A stretch of DNA of 64,000 nucleotides from Nocardioides sp. HDW12B. GTDB taxonomy: Bacteria > Actinomycetota > Actinomycetes > Propionibacteriales > Nocardioidaceae. The translations under genes and the position numbers were made by a program. Positions 22,703 through 28,843 of the stretch are shown here, in pieces (positions within the stretch are counted from its first letter, which is position 1; the number at the start of each line of letters is the position of its first letter). The stretch is from positions 2,542,001-2,606,000 of the forward strand of contig NZ_CP049867.1 in NCBI RefSeq assembly GCF_011299595.1, given 5' to 3'. A model generated the notes under the pieces. That model did not search any database. It was not told the DNA's origin and worked only from the letters and a program-made list of their open reading frames with translations.

Positions 22703-23188
22703 TCAGGGGCGACGCACGACGTACGACGAGGTCCAGATCGGGTCGATCTTGACCGGGGTGCCCGAGCGGCTGGAGTGCACGATCCGGTTGTTCCCGATGA
22801 AGACGCCGGCGTGGTAGGCGTTTCCGTTCTTGACGAACAGGATGATGTCGCCCTTGCGCTTCGCCGACTTCGACACTGCGCGCAGACCGGCCTTCTGCTG
22901 GTCGGTGGTGCGCGGGATGCTGCGCCCCGCGCGCGCGTAGGAGAACGAGGTCAGCCCCGAGCAGTCGAAGGCGTTCGGGCCGGCGGCTCCGTACCGGTAG
23001 GGGTCGCCGCGCTGCGCCAGGGCGATCTTCATGGCGCGCAGCCGCTGGGACTCGGTGGTGCGGCTGGTCGCGGCCTCGGCGTGCTGGCCGCTGTCCTCGG
23101 TGGGCAGGCCGCCCAGGAGACCGGTGAAGAGGATCGTGCCGAGCACGACGACGAGCGAGCGTCTGAGGGCAGACGTGATGACAGACAT
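22703..23188 (-). CDS. secreted NlpC/P60 cell-wall peptidase
   Basis: A 161-residue exported cysteine peptidase that cleaves peptidoglycan stem peptides. A signal peptide ([19 protein letters not shown]) is followed by the NlpC/P60 domain. The catalytic cysteine is in NAFDCSGL, the histidine in YHAGVFIG, and the third residue in RIVHSS. The ATG at 23188 follows GAAGGGAC and gives a good signal peptide; the longer open frame would place the riboswitch region inside the gene. The leader upstream looks like a c-di-AMP riboswitch, as often found before actinobacterial wall hydrolases. Confidence 0.9.
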
Positions 23189-23205
23189 GGATGTCCCTTC
23201 GTCCA

Positions 23206-23320
23206 CGCCTGTGAAATGTGACCTGTCGGGTTCGGGCTGACGGTGCCCGCTCAGCTGCGCTGAGCTCACCCCAAGGCTCGGCCGCACGTCCGGGGACGGT
23301 GCGGCGGAGCCGTGATGCTC
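23206..23320 (-). ncRNA. probable c-di-AMP riboswitch (ydaO-yuaA type)
   Basis: In the transcript leader of the NlpC/P60 gene the minus strand reads, in order, a GC-rich stem, CTTGGGGTGAGCTC, a hairpin, then CAGCCCGAACCCGACAGG and CACAGGCG. GGGGUGA and CCGAACCCGnCAG are hallmark conserved segments of the ydaO-yuaA class. That class senses cyclic di-AMP and commonly controls cell-wall hydrolases in actinobacteria. Boundaries are approximate and the 5' domain is shorter than usual. The gene-free stretch from 23321 to 23473 shows nothing else I can name. Confidence 0.6.
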
Positions 23321-23473: not shown

Positions 23474-23839
23474 CTACCGGCACACGCGGTCCAGGCCGCT
23501 CCTCCCGTAGGCCTCCGCCACGAGGTCCTCGCGCACCATCAGCACCTCCTCCGACGGCACGAGCACCACGTCACGCACGTCGCAGCCGACGACCGCGGAC
23601 ACCCCGACGCGGCGCGGGGAGGACCGGCACGTGGGCATCTCGCCCGTCCCGACACGGCGCCCGACCCGGAGCTCCCGCCACGGGCGCTCGAACCGGGATC
23701 CGACGCCGTCGTACACCCGCCCGTCGAAGGACAGGGTGGACTCCACGGTGCACTCCGCGTAGCTGCGCTCCTCAGGCGAGCAGGAGGCGCAGAGCGTCAG
23801 GACGGCGACCGCCGCGACCGTGCTCCACCCTCTCGTCAC
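23474..23839 (-). CDS. small exported cysteine-containing protein, possibly a lipoprotein
   Basis: Unrecognised 121-residue protein. The N terminus has a signal-like segment (STVAAVAVLTLCASC) ending in a possible but atypical lipobox. The remainder is polar with several cysteines (YAECTVES, MPTCRSS, VVGCDVRD and a C-terminal VCR), suggesting disulfides outside the cell. The GTG at 23839 is chosen to begin with the signal segment. It is the last gene of the minus-strand run that includes the radical SAM gene, 34 bases after its neighbour. Confidence 0.5.
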   Translation of the reverse strand: MTRGWSTVAAVAVLTLCASCSPEERSYAECTVESTLSFDGRVYDGVGSRFERPWRELRVGRRVGTGEMPTCRSSPRRVGVSAVVGCDVRDVVLVPSEEVLMVREDLVAEAYGRSGLDRVCR

Positions 23840-23873
23840 GACCCTGGGACGCGCAGCGGCGAGGAGCGGTTCC

Positions 23874-24266
23874 TCAGAGCAGGTGCGCCACGTCCCACGC
23901 GATGGCGACGACGGCCACCGCGACGAGCAGCCCGAGCCACGCGAGCACCAGGCGGGTGTCGCGCAGCAGGCACTTCGAGCGCAGCAGACCACCGCGCCGC
24001 GCCTTGGAGTACGCCGTGAAGGCCAGCGTCGCGAAGACCAGCACCGCCCAGGGGCCGAGCAGCCAGCCGAGGAGCGCGACCGTGGTGAAGACGCACAGCT
24101 TCAGCGGGTCGACGCCGGGCTCGTCAGAGGACGAGGCGTCCACCGCGCCGCCGTACGCCGCCCCCTGGGCCGCTGCCCGCTCCCGCCACCCGGGGTCCAG
24201 CGAGCCGGGGTCCAGCGAGCCGGGGTCCAGCCGGCCGGCTCCTGGTCCGGCGTCCTGCCCGCTCAC
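23874..24266 (-). CDS. small membrane protein with tandem LDPGS repeats
   Basis: A 130-residue protein of unknown family. The first ~25 residues include three LDPG repeats, encoded by a 15-bp tandem repeat. Two hydrophobic helices follow (VFTTVALLGWLLGPWAVLVF and LVLAWLGLLVAVAVVAIAW) with a basic loop between (SKARRGGLLRSK). The GTG at 24266 overlaps the radical SAM stop as GTGA, so it is translationally coupled to that gene and may be a membrane partner of it. Confidence 0.55.
   Translation of the reverse strand: MSGQDAGPGAGRLDPGSLDPGSLDPGWRERAAAQGAAYGGAVDASSSDEPGVDPLKLCVFTTVALLGWLLGPWAVLVFATLAFTAYSKARRGGLLRSKCLLRDTRLVLAWLGLLVAVAVVAIAWDVAHLL
24190..24234. repeat. 15-bp tandem repeat, three copies
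   Basis: CCGGGGTCCAGCGAG at 24190-24204 is repeated at 24205-24219 and, diverging in its last bases, at 24220-24234. It encodes LDPGS units in the small membrane protein. Copy number could vary between strains. Confidence 0.85.
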
Positions 24267-25888
24267 GGCCGCACCGTCGGTGTGGGGAGGAGGGCGGGCA
24301 GGGCGTCGGCGCCGGTCGCGGTCGACAGCCGCCGCTCCCCCAGCGGCGCCCAGGCCTGGACCGCGCAGAACGGCGCGCACTGGTGCGACCCCTCACGCTC
24401 CCCCGACGCCGGTCCGGCGACCGTGGCGACGTGGACGCAGCACTGCGTGAGCCGCTCCTCGATCATCGTGTGCATGTCCATGAACGGCTTGACCGTCACC
24501 CGCAGCACCCGCTCGCCGAGCAGCCGCCGCATCCGCTCCTTCTGACCCGGCAGCCTCGAGGCGGCCAGCGTCGCGAGCGTGCCGACCCCGATGTCGCAGC
24601 TCGAGCAGATGTCGGTCCAGATGCTGCTCATCGACGGGTGTGAGAGCGAGGACTGCTCGCTCAGCAGGTCGAGCAGCGACTGGCGCAGCACCTTCTTCAT
24701 CGACGCCGGGATGGTGTCGTCGGCGATCCGGTTGGCCAGCAGCTCGGGCTCCAGGTCGAGCCAGTCCTTGAGCCGCTCGGGCCCGATCAGCGAGACCAGC
24801 GAGCGCCAGGTCCCCGAGTCGTCGCGCAGCAGGTAGCCCACCGAGCAGCAGTGCGGGTGCGAGCACGGCAGCGCCGTCAGGTCGCGCCACGTCACCTGCC
24901 CCGCGGTCTGCTCCTCGAGCCGCGCCAGCACCCCGGTGTGGGTGAGCCGCTCCATCGGGTCGATGCCCGACGAGCGGCCCGAGCCGAACACCGGCTGGAT
25001 CGTGACGCCACCGACGTACGGCGTGTCGAAGCCGCGCTTGAGCACCGCCCCGATCTCGTCGTCGTTGACGCCCAGCGCCGCGGTCATCGTCAGCGTCATG
25101 AAGACGCCGCGCGAGGCCAGCCGCTCGATGGCGCGGTCCTTGAAGCGGCGGATGTCCGCGCCGCGGTGGTGGATCGACGCCTCGGCCGACTCGCCGTCGT
25201 ACTGCAGGTAGACCTCGACCCGCTCCCGGTGCCGCGCCAGCAGGTCGACCAGCGCGTCGTCGCGCGAGATCGCCAGCCCGTTGGTGTTGACCAGCACCCG
25301 CACGACCGGCCGGGCCGCGACGGCGTCGAGCAGCTCGGCCAGCCAGGGGTACAGCGTCGGCTCGCCCCCGGACAGCATGAGCACGTCGAGCCGGCCGTTC
25401 TCCTTCGCCAGCCGGGCGTCGATCGAGGCCAGCACCTGCTCCAGCGGCGCCACGCCGGCCCGCGCGGGCGCCGACTCCGCGAAGCACGTCGGACACTTGA
25501 GGTTGCAGTGGTCGAGGACGTCCTCGAGCAGGATGCAGGTGTGCTGGGACTGCATCTCCGGCAGCCCGTGCTCGTAGGCCGCGGGCACGGGCAGGAAGTT
25601 GCCGGTCAGGTCGGGCTGGTGCACCTTGGTCGGCGCCGTCCACTCCTCGAGGTAGGACAGGATCTCGGCGGACTCGTCGTACAGCGTCCGCACGAGCCCG
25701 TGGTCGGGGCAGCCGCGCTCCAGGAAGACCCGCTCCCCGCGGACGGCCAGCCAGCCCGACAGACGCCGTACGTCGGCCAGCGGCCGGTGCGGCTGCTCCT
25801 CGTGGCAGTGCGGGCAGAAGGCGTTGACGTACCGGTGCACCCGCCAGTCACGGGTCGGCATGCCGGGGCCGCGCGGCGTCGTGGTCAT
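24263..25888 (-). CDS. radical SAM enzyme resembling tetraether synthase (Tes/MJ0619 type)
   Basis: A 541-residue radical SAM protein. The cluster motif is CNLKCPTC (C127, C131, C134), followed by MLSGGEPTLYPWL. An N-terminal metal knuckle precedes it: C25-P-H-C28 and C60-P-D-H63-G. The C terminus has nine further cysteines: CSHPHCC near 343-350, CSSC near 427-430, CC near 481-482 and CAPFC near 503-507, enough for two auxiliary 4Fe-4S clusters. This layout matches archaeal Tes, which joins lipid tails by carbon-carbon bonds; the substrate here is unknown. The ATG at 25888 overlaps the Lgt-like stop. Family-level call is firm, lipid coupling is inference. Confidence 0.75.
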   Translation of the reverse strand: MTTTPRGPGMPTRDWRVHRYVNAFCPHCHEEQPHRPLADVRRLSGWLAVRGERVFLERGCPDHGLVRTLYDESAEILSYLEEWTAPTKVHQPDLTGNFLPVPAAYEHGLPEMQSQHTCILLEDVLDHCNLKCPTCFAESAPARAGVAPLEQVLASIDARLAKENGRLDVLMLSGGEPTLYPWLAELLDAVAARPVVRVLVNTNGLAISRDDALVDLLARHRERVEVYLQYDGESAEASIHHRGADIRRFKDRAIERLASRGVFMTLTMTAALGVNDDEIGAVLKRGFDTPYVGGVTIQPVFGSGRSSGIDPMERLTHTGVLARLEEQTAGQVTWRDLTALPCSHPHCCSVGYLLRDDSGTWRSLVSLIGPERLKDWLDLEPELLANRIADDTIPASMKKVLRQSLLDLLSEQSSLSHPSMSSIWTDICSSCDIGVGTLATLAASRLPGQKERMRRLLGERVLRVTVKPFMDMHTMIEERLTQCCVHVATVAGPASGEREGSHQCAPFCAVQAWAPLGERRLSTATGADALPALLPTPTVRP

Positions 25889-26700
25889 GCGGGGACCTGC
25901 TCTCGGGTCGGCGCGGCGGAGCGCCGCAGGATCGGGTCGTAGCGGCCGCGCCGGAAGCCGACGACGAGGCGTCCGAGCAGCAGCGGCAGGGTGAGGGCCA
26001 GGAAGAGCTGGGGCCGGGTCAGCCCCTCCCAGGCGACCTCGTTGCCGCGGATGAACTCGACGAGGAAGCGCACGACGGCGTAGGCGGCGACGTACAGCAC
26101 GAAGGTCTCCCCCGGTGCGGTCAGCCGGTGACGCATCCAGAACCAGATCGCGGCGAAGGCGAGCAGGTGGAAGGCGATCTCGTAGAGGTGCGACAGGTGC
26201 AGCGGTACGCCGGCCGGCGACCCGGTCCGCGCCGCGGTGGCGTCGTCGAGGGTGACGCAGAGGACGTCGCAGCCGGCCGTGCCGGGTCGCTCGGTCAGCA
26301 GGCAGCCGATCCGGCCGATGCCCATGCCGAGCGCCACCGCCGGGGCGAACAGGTCGCCGGTGCGGGCGCGGTAGCCGCACAGCCGCTTGGCCACGTGCAC
26401 GCCCAGCCACGCGCCGACCAGGCCGGACAGGATGCTGCGGTTGCCGAGCAGCCACTGCTCGGCGAAGGAGGCGTTCTCCCGCAGGTCGACGTGCTGGAGC
26501 CAGGTGCCCAGCCGCATGAGGATCGCGCCCCCGAGCAGCGCACCGGTGACGACGTACAGCAGGCGCTCGTCGCGCTGGCCCCGGCGGCGGGCTTCCGCGA
26601 GGAACACCACCGTGGCGGCGACGACGCCGAGACCCACGAAGACGCTGTGCGTCGACAGTGGAAGGTCGGTGCCGAGCAGGTCGCCGAGGGTGGGGTACAT
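25885..26700 (-). CDS. Lgt-like polytopic membrane protein (prolipoprotein diacylglyceryl transferase family)
   Basis: A 271-residue protein with about seven hydrophobic segments and the overall layout of Lgt. The Lgt signature (GRxGNFxNxE) appears as GRIGCLLTE near residues 127-135: arginine and glutamate are kept but the asparagine essential in E. coli Lgt is cysteine. The C-terminal VRFLVEFIRGNE keeps the RxxxE pattern. A changed reaction is therefore likely, perhaps transfer of or to a glycerolipid. It overlaps the radical SAM gene (ATGA) and the upstream small membrane gene (TGATG). I would not call it the housekeeping lgt. Confidence 0.7.
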   Translation of the reverse strand: MYPTLGDLLGTDLPLSTHSVFVGLGVVAATVVFLAEARRRGQRDERLLYVVTGALLGGAILMRLGTWLQHVDLRENASFAEQWLLGNRSILSGLVGAWLGVHVAKRLCGYRARTGDLFAPAVALGMGIGRIGCLLTERPGTAGCDVLCVTLDDATAARTGSPAGVPLHLSHLYEIAFHLLAFAAIWFWMRHRLTAPGETFVLYVAAYAVVRFLVEFIRGNEVAWEGLTRPQLFLALTLPLLLGRLVVGFRRGRYDPILRRSAAPTREQVPA

Positions 26701-27251
26701 CAGTGGGCGCCGCTCAGGGCGGCGATGAAGAGGCCCCAGACGCCCAGGCAGGAGGCCGAGCCGACGATCATGCCGATCGACATGCCCATGAGCAGACCGG
26801 CGCCGGCCTTGCGGAGCTTGCGCGAGAGCAGCATGCCGATGCCCACCACGATGGGCAGGCCGAAGCCGAGGGCGATGCCGAACCCTCCGAGGGCGTCGGA
26901 GCCCGACGTGCTCGCCACACCGGAGCTCAACCAGATGCCCAGCCACGGCATGACCAGGAAGCCGAGCGCGAGGCCCAGCAGGAGACCGCCGACGACGGCG
27001 AGCGGGTGGCGCCGCTTGCCCGGCGGGGGCTGCCACGGCTGGCCCGGGGGCGGAGCGCCCGGATAGCCGGGGCCCGGGGGCGGAGCGCCCGGGTAGCCCT
27101 GCCCCGGCGGCTGCTGGCCCCACCCGGGGGGCTGCTGGCCCCACCCGGGGGGTGGCTGGCCGCGGTCGGGCGGCGGGACACCGCCCTCCGGGGGCGACGG
27201 GCGTCCGTCGTCAGGAGGCGGTACGCCGTCGTCGGGCGGTCGACTCGTCAT
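26700..27251 (-). CDS. proline-rich membrane protein
   Basis: A 183-residue protein. The first ~80 residues are a cytoplasmic-type Pro/Gly/Gln-rich tail with repeats (GWGQQPP, GYPGAPPPG). Hydrophobic helices follow (HPLAVVGGLLLGLALGFLVM, FGIALGFGLPIVVGIGMLL) and a C-terminal segment GMSIGMIVGSASCLGVWGLF. That last segment closely resembles the end of the 102-residue neighbour (GLAIGMIVGSATCLGLLGL), so the two are paralogues. Function unknown. It overlaps the Lgt-like gene start by one base, pointing to a shared job in the membrane. Confidence 0.65.
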   Translation of the reverse strand: MTSRPPDDGVPPPDDGRPSPPEGGVPPPDRGQPPPGWGQQPPGWGQQPPGQGYPGAPPPGPGYPGAPPPGQPWQPPPGKRRHPLAVVGGLLLGLALGFLVMPWLGIWLSSGVASTSGSDALGGFGIALGFGLPIVVGIGMLLSRKLRKAGAGLLMGMSIGMIVGSASCLGVWGLFIAALSGAH

Positions 27252-27349: not shown

Positions 27350-27658
27350 TCAGCCGGCGTAGCTGCCCTCGACGAGGCCGAGCAGGCCCAGGCAGGTCGC
27401 CGACCCCACGATCATGCCGATCGCCAGCCCCAGCACGACGCCGGCACCGACCGAGCGGAAGCGCGGCGGCACGAGCAGCAGCACCCCGAGCACCAGCGGC
27501 ACCAGCAGGACGTGGATCAGGTTCCAGGAGCCGTCGCCCGCCTTCACGGTGCTGTCCAGCAGCAGGAACACCACCCACGGGAGCCCGAAGAACCCGGTGA
27601 ACAGCCCGATCAGGACCCCGAGGCCGGTGAGCCGGCGAGGGCGCTCCTCGGTGCTCAG
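27350..27658 (-). CDS. small four-helix membrane protein, paralogue of its neighbour
   Basis: About 102 residues and strongly hydrophobic. Helices lie around LTGLGVLIGLFTGFFGLP, LIHVLLVPLVLGVLLLVP and GVVLGLAIGMIVGSATCLGL. The last motif is shared with the 183-residue protein downstream. No ATG or GTG lies before the first helix; the frame can only start there with CTG at 27658, overlapping the preceding TGA as CTGA. The alternative GTGs at 27577 or 27574 would delete the first helix. I favour the CTG because of the overlap, with low certainty. Confidence 0.5.
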   Translation of the reverse strand: MSTEERPRRLTGLGVLIGLFTGFFGLPWVVFLLLDSTVKAGDGSWNLIHVLLVPLVLGVLLLVPPRFRSVGAGVVLGLAIGMIVGSATCLGLLGLVEGSYAG

Positions 27659-27981
27659 AACGGCCCCATCCCGAAGACCAGGACGGTCATGACGAGTCCG
27701 ACGAGCCCGCCGGTCAGCAGCCCGGTGGCCAGGCCCCGCAGCAGGCCCCGCCCGCCCTCGCGGACCGAGCGGACCAGCAGGAGCCCGAGACCGAGCAGGA
27801 ACGGCAGGGCCGGGGACACCAGGCTGGCGGAGTCCTGGTCGGACTGCGCCAGCGCCGGGAACAGCGAGAACAGCACGAAGCCGACGAACAGACCCACGAG
27901 GGTGCCCAGCGTGACGAGCACCGGCTTCTGGCGCGACGGCGGGCTGGAGGACGGCCCGCTCGGAGAGCTAGAGGACGGCAT
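27655..27981 (-). CDS. small membrane protein
   Basis: A 108-residue protein with a serine/proline-rich N terminus and hydrophobic segments around VTLGTLVGLFVGFVLFSL, LPFLLGLGLLLV and LTGGLVGLVMTVLVFG. The GRGLLRGLATGLLTGG stretch parallels the C-terminal helices of the next two genes, suggesting a third member of the same small family. It starts inside the end of cdsA (14-base overlap), tying it to phospholipid synthesis genes at least in transcription. Confidence 0.6.
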   Translation of the reverse strand: MPSSSSPSGPSSSPPSRQKPVLVTLGTLVGLFVGFVLFSLFPALAQSDQDSASLVSPALPFLLGLGLLLVRSVREGGRGLLRGLATGLLTGGLVGLVMTVLVFGMGPF

Positions 27982-28843
27982 AGTGCAGCAGCAGCCAGAT
28001 GGGCGCGACGGTCGCGAGCAGCGAGTCGAGGCGGTCCATGAGGCCGCCGTGGCCGGGGATGACCTGCGACATGTCCTTGATGCCGAGGTCGCGCTTGATC
28101 ACCGACTCGACGAGGTCGCCCAGCGTGGCCATCACGACCGCGATGAGGCCCAGTGCGACACCGACCCACCAGTCGCCCTCGAGCAGGTAGTCGACGAGCA
28201 GCCAGCCCGCCACCACGCACGCGAGGGCGGAGCCGGCGAAGCCCTCCCACGACTTCTTCGGGGAGATGACCGGGGCCATCGGGTGCTTGCCGAACAGCAC
28301 CCCGGCGACGTACCCGCCGATGTCGGAGGCGGCGGTGACGGCGATGAAGGTGATGATCGCCTTCACGCCGTCGTCCTCGGCCAGCAGCAGCGCCACGAAC
28401 GAGCCGAGGAACGGCACGTAGAAGATCGTGAAGACCGACGCGGTGGCGTCGCGGACGAAGCCGTCGATGCCGCGGCGCAGCAGCCACAGCATGGTGACCA
28501 GGCCCGTGACGGCGGTCGCGGTCACCAGCGGCTCGGTGCCCTCGAAGTACGCCGAGACCACCATGACCGTGCCGCCGAGCATCAACGGCTCCTGCGGCAG
28601 GTTGATGCCCTTGGCGCGGAACCCGCGGTCGAGCTCCCAGATGGCGACCAGGACGGCGGCGACCACCACGATCATGAACAGCCACTTGAGGAAGACCAGG
28701 GACACGATGATCATCGTGGCGAGGCCGACGCCGGAGGCGATGGCGAGCGGGAGGTTCCGACCGGCGCGGCTCTGCTTCGTCGCGGTCGACGGCGGGGGCC
28801 CCGACGGCTCGGGAGTGGCGGCCGGGGTGGAGGGGTCAGTCAT
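27968..28843 (-). CDS. cdsA: phosphatidate cytidylyltransferase
   Basis: Makes CDP-diacylglycerol from phosphatidic acid and CTP at the membrane, the branch point for phosphatidylglycerol, cardiolipin and phosphatidylinositol. The 291-residue polytopic protein carries the C-terminal family signature KRDLGIKDMSQVIPGHGGLM followed by DRLDSLL. The cytoplasmic N terminus is Pro/Ser/Thr-rich, followed by about eight helices. Position after frr in a pyrH-frr-cdsA run is the usual actinobacterial order. Confidence 0.96.
   Translation of the reverse strand: MTDPSTPAATPEPSGPPPSTATKQSRAGRNLPLAIASGVGLATMIIVSLVFLKWLFMIVVVAAVLVAIWELDRGFRAKGINLPQEPLMLGGTVMVVSAYFEGTEPLVTATAVTGLVTMLWLLRRGIDGFVRDATASVFTIFYVPFLGSFVALLLAEDDGVKAIITFIAVTAASDIGGYVAGVLFGKHPMAPVISPKKSWEGFAGSALACVVAGWLLVDYLLEGDWWVGVALGLIAVVMATLGDLVESVIKRDLGIKDMSQVIPGHGGLMDRLDSLLATVAPIWLLLHYAVL

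Follow-up and report, generated by a model that had tools for sequence, protein, structure and literature searches.

A paired radical SAM and Lgt-like gene module of Actinobacteria with a tentative role in lipid modification

Abstract

A 64,000-nucleotide stretch of the Nocardioides sp. HDW12B genome (contig NZ_CP049867.1, positions 2,542,001–2,606,000; here, the window) encodes a radical S-adenosylmethionine (SAM) protein of the tetraether synthase (Tes) superfamily beside a divergent Lgt-like membrane protein. Sequence comparison shows the two enzymes to be inherited as a unit, with one or both of two small membrane proteins, sm2 and sm3. Its probable targets for modification are membrane lipids or a protein with a lipid anchor. 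Its reading as an actinobacterial, horizontally mobile lipid-modification module, acting by the lipid-directed steps proposed here, is tentative and falls a little short of an even chance.

Gene pair and distribution

Loci were taken as the best 80 from 84,980 species, and all 80 bear actinobacterial names. In 79 of them the Lgt-like and radical SAM genes are neighbors, and the remaining locus is cut at a contig end. The loci span Nocardioidaceae, Intrasporangiaceae, Microbacteriaceae, Micrococcaceae, Micromonosporaceae, and others. The pair always lies on one strand, in the order Lgt-TES in 52 loci and TES-Lgt in 25. Across 397 Actinomycetota genomes, strong matches to the radical SAM protein and strong matches to the Lgt-like protein (at least 239 bits, with every other match below 125 bits) fall in the same 10. 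The two proteins show correlated pairwise distances (r 0.89), to which shared ancestry contributes. An earlier note on this DNA had proposed the pair and a survey of its co-occurrence; the pair is real and the genes co-occur, and the note missed the two tiny membrane protein families. Its statement that no actinobacterial system of this composition is known to have been described agrees with the open-access literature, in which no description of an Lgt/radical SAM pair was found.

Both enzymes of the window's pair are close to their counterparts in Janibacter sp. HTCC2649 and not to those of another Janibacter. Mycobacterium avium plasmid pS2b (L188) and M. branderi plasmid pJCM12687 (L189) carry the pair near transposase genes, with two sm3-like proteins between. 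The Janibacter pattern and plasmid carriage are signs of joint transfer. A Nonomuraea gerenzanensis record (L190, 11.85 Mb) is filed as a plasmid and, judging from its size, is evidently the chromosome.

The module genes in the window are as follows.

24263–25888, minus strand: Tes-superfamily radical SAM gene (541 amino acids, ATG start)
25885–26700, minus strand: Lgt-like membrane protein gene (271 amino acids)
23874–24266, minus strand: sm2, small membrane protein (130 amino acids, GTG start overlapping the radical SAM stop)
26700–27251, minus strand: sm3 copy a (183 amino acids, stop overlapping the Lgt-like start)
27350–27655, minus strand: sm3 copy b (IVGSATC near the C-terminus, start codon uncertain)
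27655–27981, minus strand: sm3 copy c (108 amino acids, without the conserved cysteine)

Overlaps are 1 base at the junction of sm3 copy a and the Lgt-like gene, 4 bases (ATGA) between the Lgt-like and radical SAM genes, and 4 bases between the radical SAM gene and sm2. The overlap of the enzyme genes and the cysteine motifs named by the earlier note were both located.

Radical SAM protein

A single-sequence PDB search with the radical SAM protein matched Tes alone (7tol, E 2.1e-30, residues 40–489), and a 22-sequence profile search ranked Tes first (E 7e-39). An AlphaFold2 model built from the 22-sequence alignment was of moderate quality (predicted local distance difference test [pLDDT] 70, predicted template modeling score 0.77). 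Its best fold match is Tes (7tom, E 4.2e-25, template modeling [TM] score 0.68/0.73), followed by the next different protein at E 7.6e-7. Tes (7tol/7tom) is the only full-length match in sequence and fold, and the Pfam hits are the Tes-type N-terminal ribbon PF23545 and a radical SAM domain. The kinship with Tes that had been predicted thus holds in both profile search and structure prediction.

Identity with Tes does not hold. The protein scores 138.6 bits against the NCBIfam Tes cut-off of 450 (NF045702), with a best stretch covering residues 22–345 only. Its highest NCBIfam score is for TrsS (NF045646), at 187.3 against 490 bits over residues 40–490; both scores are far under the cut-offs. 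In a maximum-likelihood tree, all family members fall in one clade (support 100/100), which a branch of 3.23 changes per site sets off from Tes, the TrsS-like protein, and other bacterial clades. The tree held one Tes sequence, itself on a long branch, and the order among the other clades is unreliable because several rows are long. Membership in Tes or TrsS was rejected on NCBIfam cut-offs, key residues, and the tree. A survey of bacterial Tes proteins searched from an archaeal query and accepted matches at E below 1e-50 (PMC8941075), a cut-off at which this family would probably escape notice. A defense (viperin) reading was also rejected, as PADLOC matched the generic radical SAM core only (E 5e-10 over 87 residues).

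The N-terminal rubredoxin-like site comprises C25PHC28 and C60PDH63, with conserved ligands C25/C28/C60/H63, and is followed by the radical SAM cluster motif C128-x3-C132-x2-C135 and nine C-terminal cysteines (C342, C347, C348, C428, C431, C483, C484, C504, and C508). Across 80 homologues all motif residues are kept except C348 (63/80) and C428 (79/80). An alignment to Tes that reproduces the published MJ0619 numbering (C33, H36, C73, C102/C105, M439, and Y459; PMC9433317) matches the invariant C347/C483/C484/C508 to Tes C338/C455/C456/C470, as equivalents read from the alignment. Four cysteines are gained relative to Tes: C342 and C431, common to most other bacterial clades, and C428 and C504, which are almost confined to this clade. 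No cysteine occurs in aligned clade members at the N-terminal auxiliary [4Fe-4S] ligands (MJ0619 C73/C77/C80 plus a histidine). Since equivalents of C73/C77/C80 are absent, there are no two auxiliary clusters in the Tes sense; the rest of the Tes layout described in the earlier note (rubredoxin site, radical SAM cluster, and C-terminal cysteines) stands. Tes Met439 is replaced by invariant Lys467 and Tes Tyr459 by Val or Ala at 487. Met439 and Tyr459 are reported to be completely conserved across 1000 archaeal homologues (PMC9433317).

Two unusual gene forms were seen. Repeated DDLARTRGRGSRGPERVVPGGSGGGGAPPEE-like units are inserted in the radical SAM protein just past the C342/C347 motif in loci L127 and L194 (genome G223). 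Locus L124 (genome G264) holds a decayed copy of the gene, with matches across different frames and an internal stop.

Lgt-like protein

The Lgt-like protein matches PF01790 (87.7 bits against a gathering score of 24.9) and reaches no NCBIfam lgt cut-off (TIGR00544, 48.9 against 118.9 bits). Its predicted model is good (pLDDT 87), and no fold other than that of E. coli Lgt (5azb, TM score 0.6) matches it at E below 0.001. Residues G142, R143, G145, E151, Y235, R239, E243, and R246 are reported as needed for Lgt activity (PMC4728403). All are kept in 78/78 Lgt-like sequences except G145, kept in 77/78. The position of Lgt His103 in the HGGL motif is Leu in the window protein; over the set it is Leu in 72/78 and Ile in 5/78, that is, Leu or Ile wherever readable. 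His103 is essential in E. coli Lgt and is a proposed contact of the lipobox peptide (PMC4728403). Retention of the donor residues with loss of His103 suggests that the donor chemistry is kept and the acceptor changed. Lgt Tyr26 is also lost. The genome also has a canonical lgt gene at another site.

The Lgt signature residue Asn146 is replaced by a strictly invariant Cys133. This cysteine adjoins the catalytic Arg and could be a covalent lipid-carrying residue.

Small membrane proteins

The sm2 family has the conserved core DPLRLC...GY.RARR.GL.RSKC.L.DTRLVL.YL and is found in 74/81 loci; sm3 is found in 75/81, and several of the remaining loci are cut contigs. A Pfam scan of sm2 and sm3 representatives gave nothing significant. 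In the 397 genomes, clear sm2 matches are confined to 7 of the 10 pair-bearing genomes, with two weak partial matches elsewhere. The sm3 signal is weaker: 5 of these 10 genomes have it, and matches in other genomes are short or weak. Locus L166 (genome G111, without the pair) has a broken partial sm2-like match that is possibly a relic of a lost module.

Copy a of sm3 has a proline-rich N-terminus, about three predicted transmembrane helices, and IVGSASC near its C-terminus. The family is poorly conserved except for one cysteine, kept in 86/97 copies and in at least one copy in every sm3 locus. This cysteine lies 17–25 residues (median 21) past the last Lys or Arg, after a positively charged loop and with a neutral tail. 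By the positive-inside rule it would sit at the outer end of the last helix, resembling a lipobox cysteine but placed C-terminally.

Genomic context and sister clades

Three features flank the module.

27968–28843, minus strand: cdsA, upstream of the module
22703–23287: NlpC/P60 peptidase gene, between the module and rlmN
23474–23992: small exported protein of no known family, in the same interval

The minus-strand order is cdsA, sm3 copies c, b, and a, the Lgt-like gene, the radical SAM gene, and sm2. In three genomes of the same genus without the radical SAM gene, cdsA is followed by rlmN within ~100 bases, so the whole stretch between them is an insert relative to those genomes. The insert contains the module, the NlpC/P60 gene, and the small exported protein. 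The earlier note correctly placed cdsA upstream in the window. As cdsA is near the module in only 13/81 loci, a functional linkage was rejected; cdsA reflects lineage synteny and lies outside the system.

Most members of two sister clades in Actinomycetota (B and C), which keep the N-terminal auxiliary cysteines, are encoded just upstream of a class I methyltransferase-like gene. A haloarchaeal relative (26% identity) has a methyltransferase gene downstream, and the TrsS-like locus L121 has an AMP-ligase-like gene downstream. Partners in the superfamily are thus clade-specific, and being related to Tes is not enough by itself to establish tail coupling.

Radical SAM proteins of the Tes superfamily at loci L016–L019, L112–L118, L203, and L204, ~26–33% identical to that of the window and one of them haloarchaeal, lie directly upstream of a SAM-dependent methyltransferase gene. 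They apparently represent a second partner-defined system.

Proposed function and alternatives

Lipid chemistry is favored because Tes-fold and Lgt-fold enzymes handle glycerophospholipids in known cases. It is fairly likely that the Lgt-like enzyme would bind phosphatidylglycerol or a similar phospholipid and activate its diacylglyceryl group as Lgt does. Its acceptor is likely to be something other than a lipobox signal peptide. The conserved sm3 cysteine, predicted to lie where the last helix ends on the outer side, is a good candidate acceptor, though the odds are against it. The radical SAM enzyme, at the membrane perhaps via sm2, would abstract a hydrogen from an acyl-chain end and modify the chain, a step held slightly more probable than its absence. 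The reaction might be C-C coupling of two tails, as in Tes, although this is not the expected outcome. The outcome would be an altered or cross-linked lipid, either free or carried by a small membrane protein. By analogy with Tes, membrane-spanning lipids made by tail coupling are possible. In the most specific form of the scheme, a small transmembrane protein would receive diacylglyceryl on a cysteine at its C-terminal end, with neither lipobox nor signal-peptide cleavage, and the Tes-like enzyme would then cross-link or modify the tails to give a protein with a membrane-spanning or otherwise altered lipid as its anchor; this combination is distinctly improbable.

Several observations weigh against lipid modification by these steps. 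Substrate and product are proposed from sequence and fold, and the radical SAM model is only moderate in quality. Tes Met439 and Tyr459 are both replaced, and the superfamily, given its methyltransferase-paired relatives, does more than couple tails. The Lgt-like protein, having lost His103, may have ceased to be catalytic. Lgt works at the outer face of the membrane, whereas a cytoplasmic location is expected of a radical SAM enzyme. Neither of the small proteins occurs throughout: mycobacterium-like loci have sm3 with no sm2 detected, the deep-branching loci f45, f16, and f31 have sm2 with no sm3 detected, and sm3 copies without the cysteine exist.

Bulk lipids could be the sole product. The radical SAM enzyme would then couple acyl tails into diabolic-type, membrane-spanning, or macrocyclic lipids, the Lgt-like protein would remodel or present phospholipid, and the small proteins would be scaffolds. 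The Tes fold, the retained C-terminal cluster cysteines, and the kept Lgt donor site agree with such a role, as does the Tes catalytic architecture reported for bacterial Mss (PMC13274423). The family nevertheless forms a separate clade that has lost Met439, Tyr459, and the N-terminal auxiliary cluster, and a search of the open-access literature found no report of diabolic-type lipids for the aerobic genera that carry the module, a weak argument. A restriction to bulk lipids is considered unlikely. Non-lipid chemistry on a small molecule or cofactor, as may hold for TrsS and the methyltransferase-paired clades, is a slightly less favored explanation and would leave the Lgt-like protein as a dead lipid-binding anchor. 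The TrsS score above that of Tes (187 vs 139 bits, both far below cut-off), the methyltransferase and AMP-ligase-like partners of sister clades, and an Lgt-like protein without the essential His103 and without Tyr26 all fit it. However, a dead anchor would have no need of donor residues that are invariant or nearly so in 78 sequences of only ~50–70% identity.

The small proteins could instead be substrates of both enzymes, in the manner of ribosomally synthesized and post-translationally modified peptides, with the radical SAM enzyme making a cysteine cross-link and the Lgt-like enzyme adding lipid. Short proteins with invariant cysteines (sm2 C28 and C69, sm3 C94 in the alignments) do stand beside the radical SAM gene. 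Like precursor peptides, sm3 is highly variable apart from its cysteine and sometimes multicopy, and the extra C-terminal cysteines of the enzyme recall SPASM-type peptide maturases. Yet fold and sequence are nearest the lipid enzyme, with peptide maturases far behind; being integral membrane proteins, sm2 and sm3 would make poor substrates for a maturase of the cytosol, and each goes undetected in some loci. Peptide maturation is given a low probability, below the two preceding explanations.

An intact donor site and a changed acceptor site in a paired mobile module suggest lipid chemistry undescribed in aerobic actinobacteria, whose carrier genera include Microbacterium, Arthrobacter, Nocardioides, and Mycobacterium. 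Either membrane-spanning or radical modification of lipids would reach into a large culturable group, with consequences for how bacterial tetraether-type biomarkers are traced, or the module would represent a second kind of protein lipidation. With its partners, and with close relatives that naturally have or lack it, the module lends itself to direct tests.

Comparison with known systems

Tes (GDGT-MAS; MJ0619, NF045702, PDB 7TOL/7TOM) has a hydrophobic tunnel in which it binds both phosphatidic acid and archaetidylglycerol (PMC9433317). The family shares with Tes full-length homology, fold, the rubredoxin CX2C...CX2H, the radical SAM CX3CX2C, and equivalents of C338/C455/C456/C470. It differs in having no N-terminal auxiliary ligands, Lys for Met439, Val or Ala for Tyr459, four extra C-terminal cysteines (C342/C428/C431/C504), a separate clade, and an obligate Lgt-like partner. 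TrsS (NF045646) gives the top NCBIfam score, under its cut-off, and has different gene neighbors, such as the AMP-ligase-like gene at the TrsS-like locus. Bacterial Mss, which makes iso-diabolic acid lipids, is reported to share Tes catalytic architecture and lipid binding; it is set beside the family by description only, and the partial text of that report mentions no Lgt partner (PMC13274423). Clades B and C belong to the same superfamily, with a common CxxPxC motif and C-terminal CC...PFC, but keep the N-terminal auxiliary cysteines and are partnered by a SAM methyltransferase, with no Lgt-like gene. The Lgt-like partner shares with Lgt (PF01790, E. coli 5AZB) its fold and donor-site residues R143, R239, E243, R246, E151, and Y235, and differs in the loss of His103 and Tyr26 and in the invariant Cys at Asn146.

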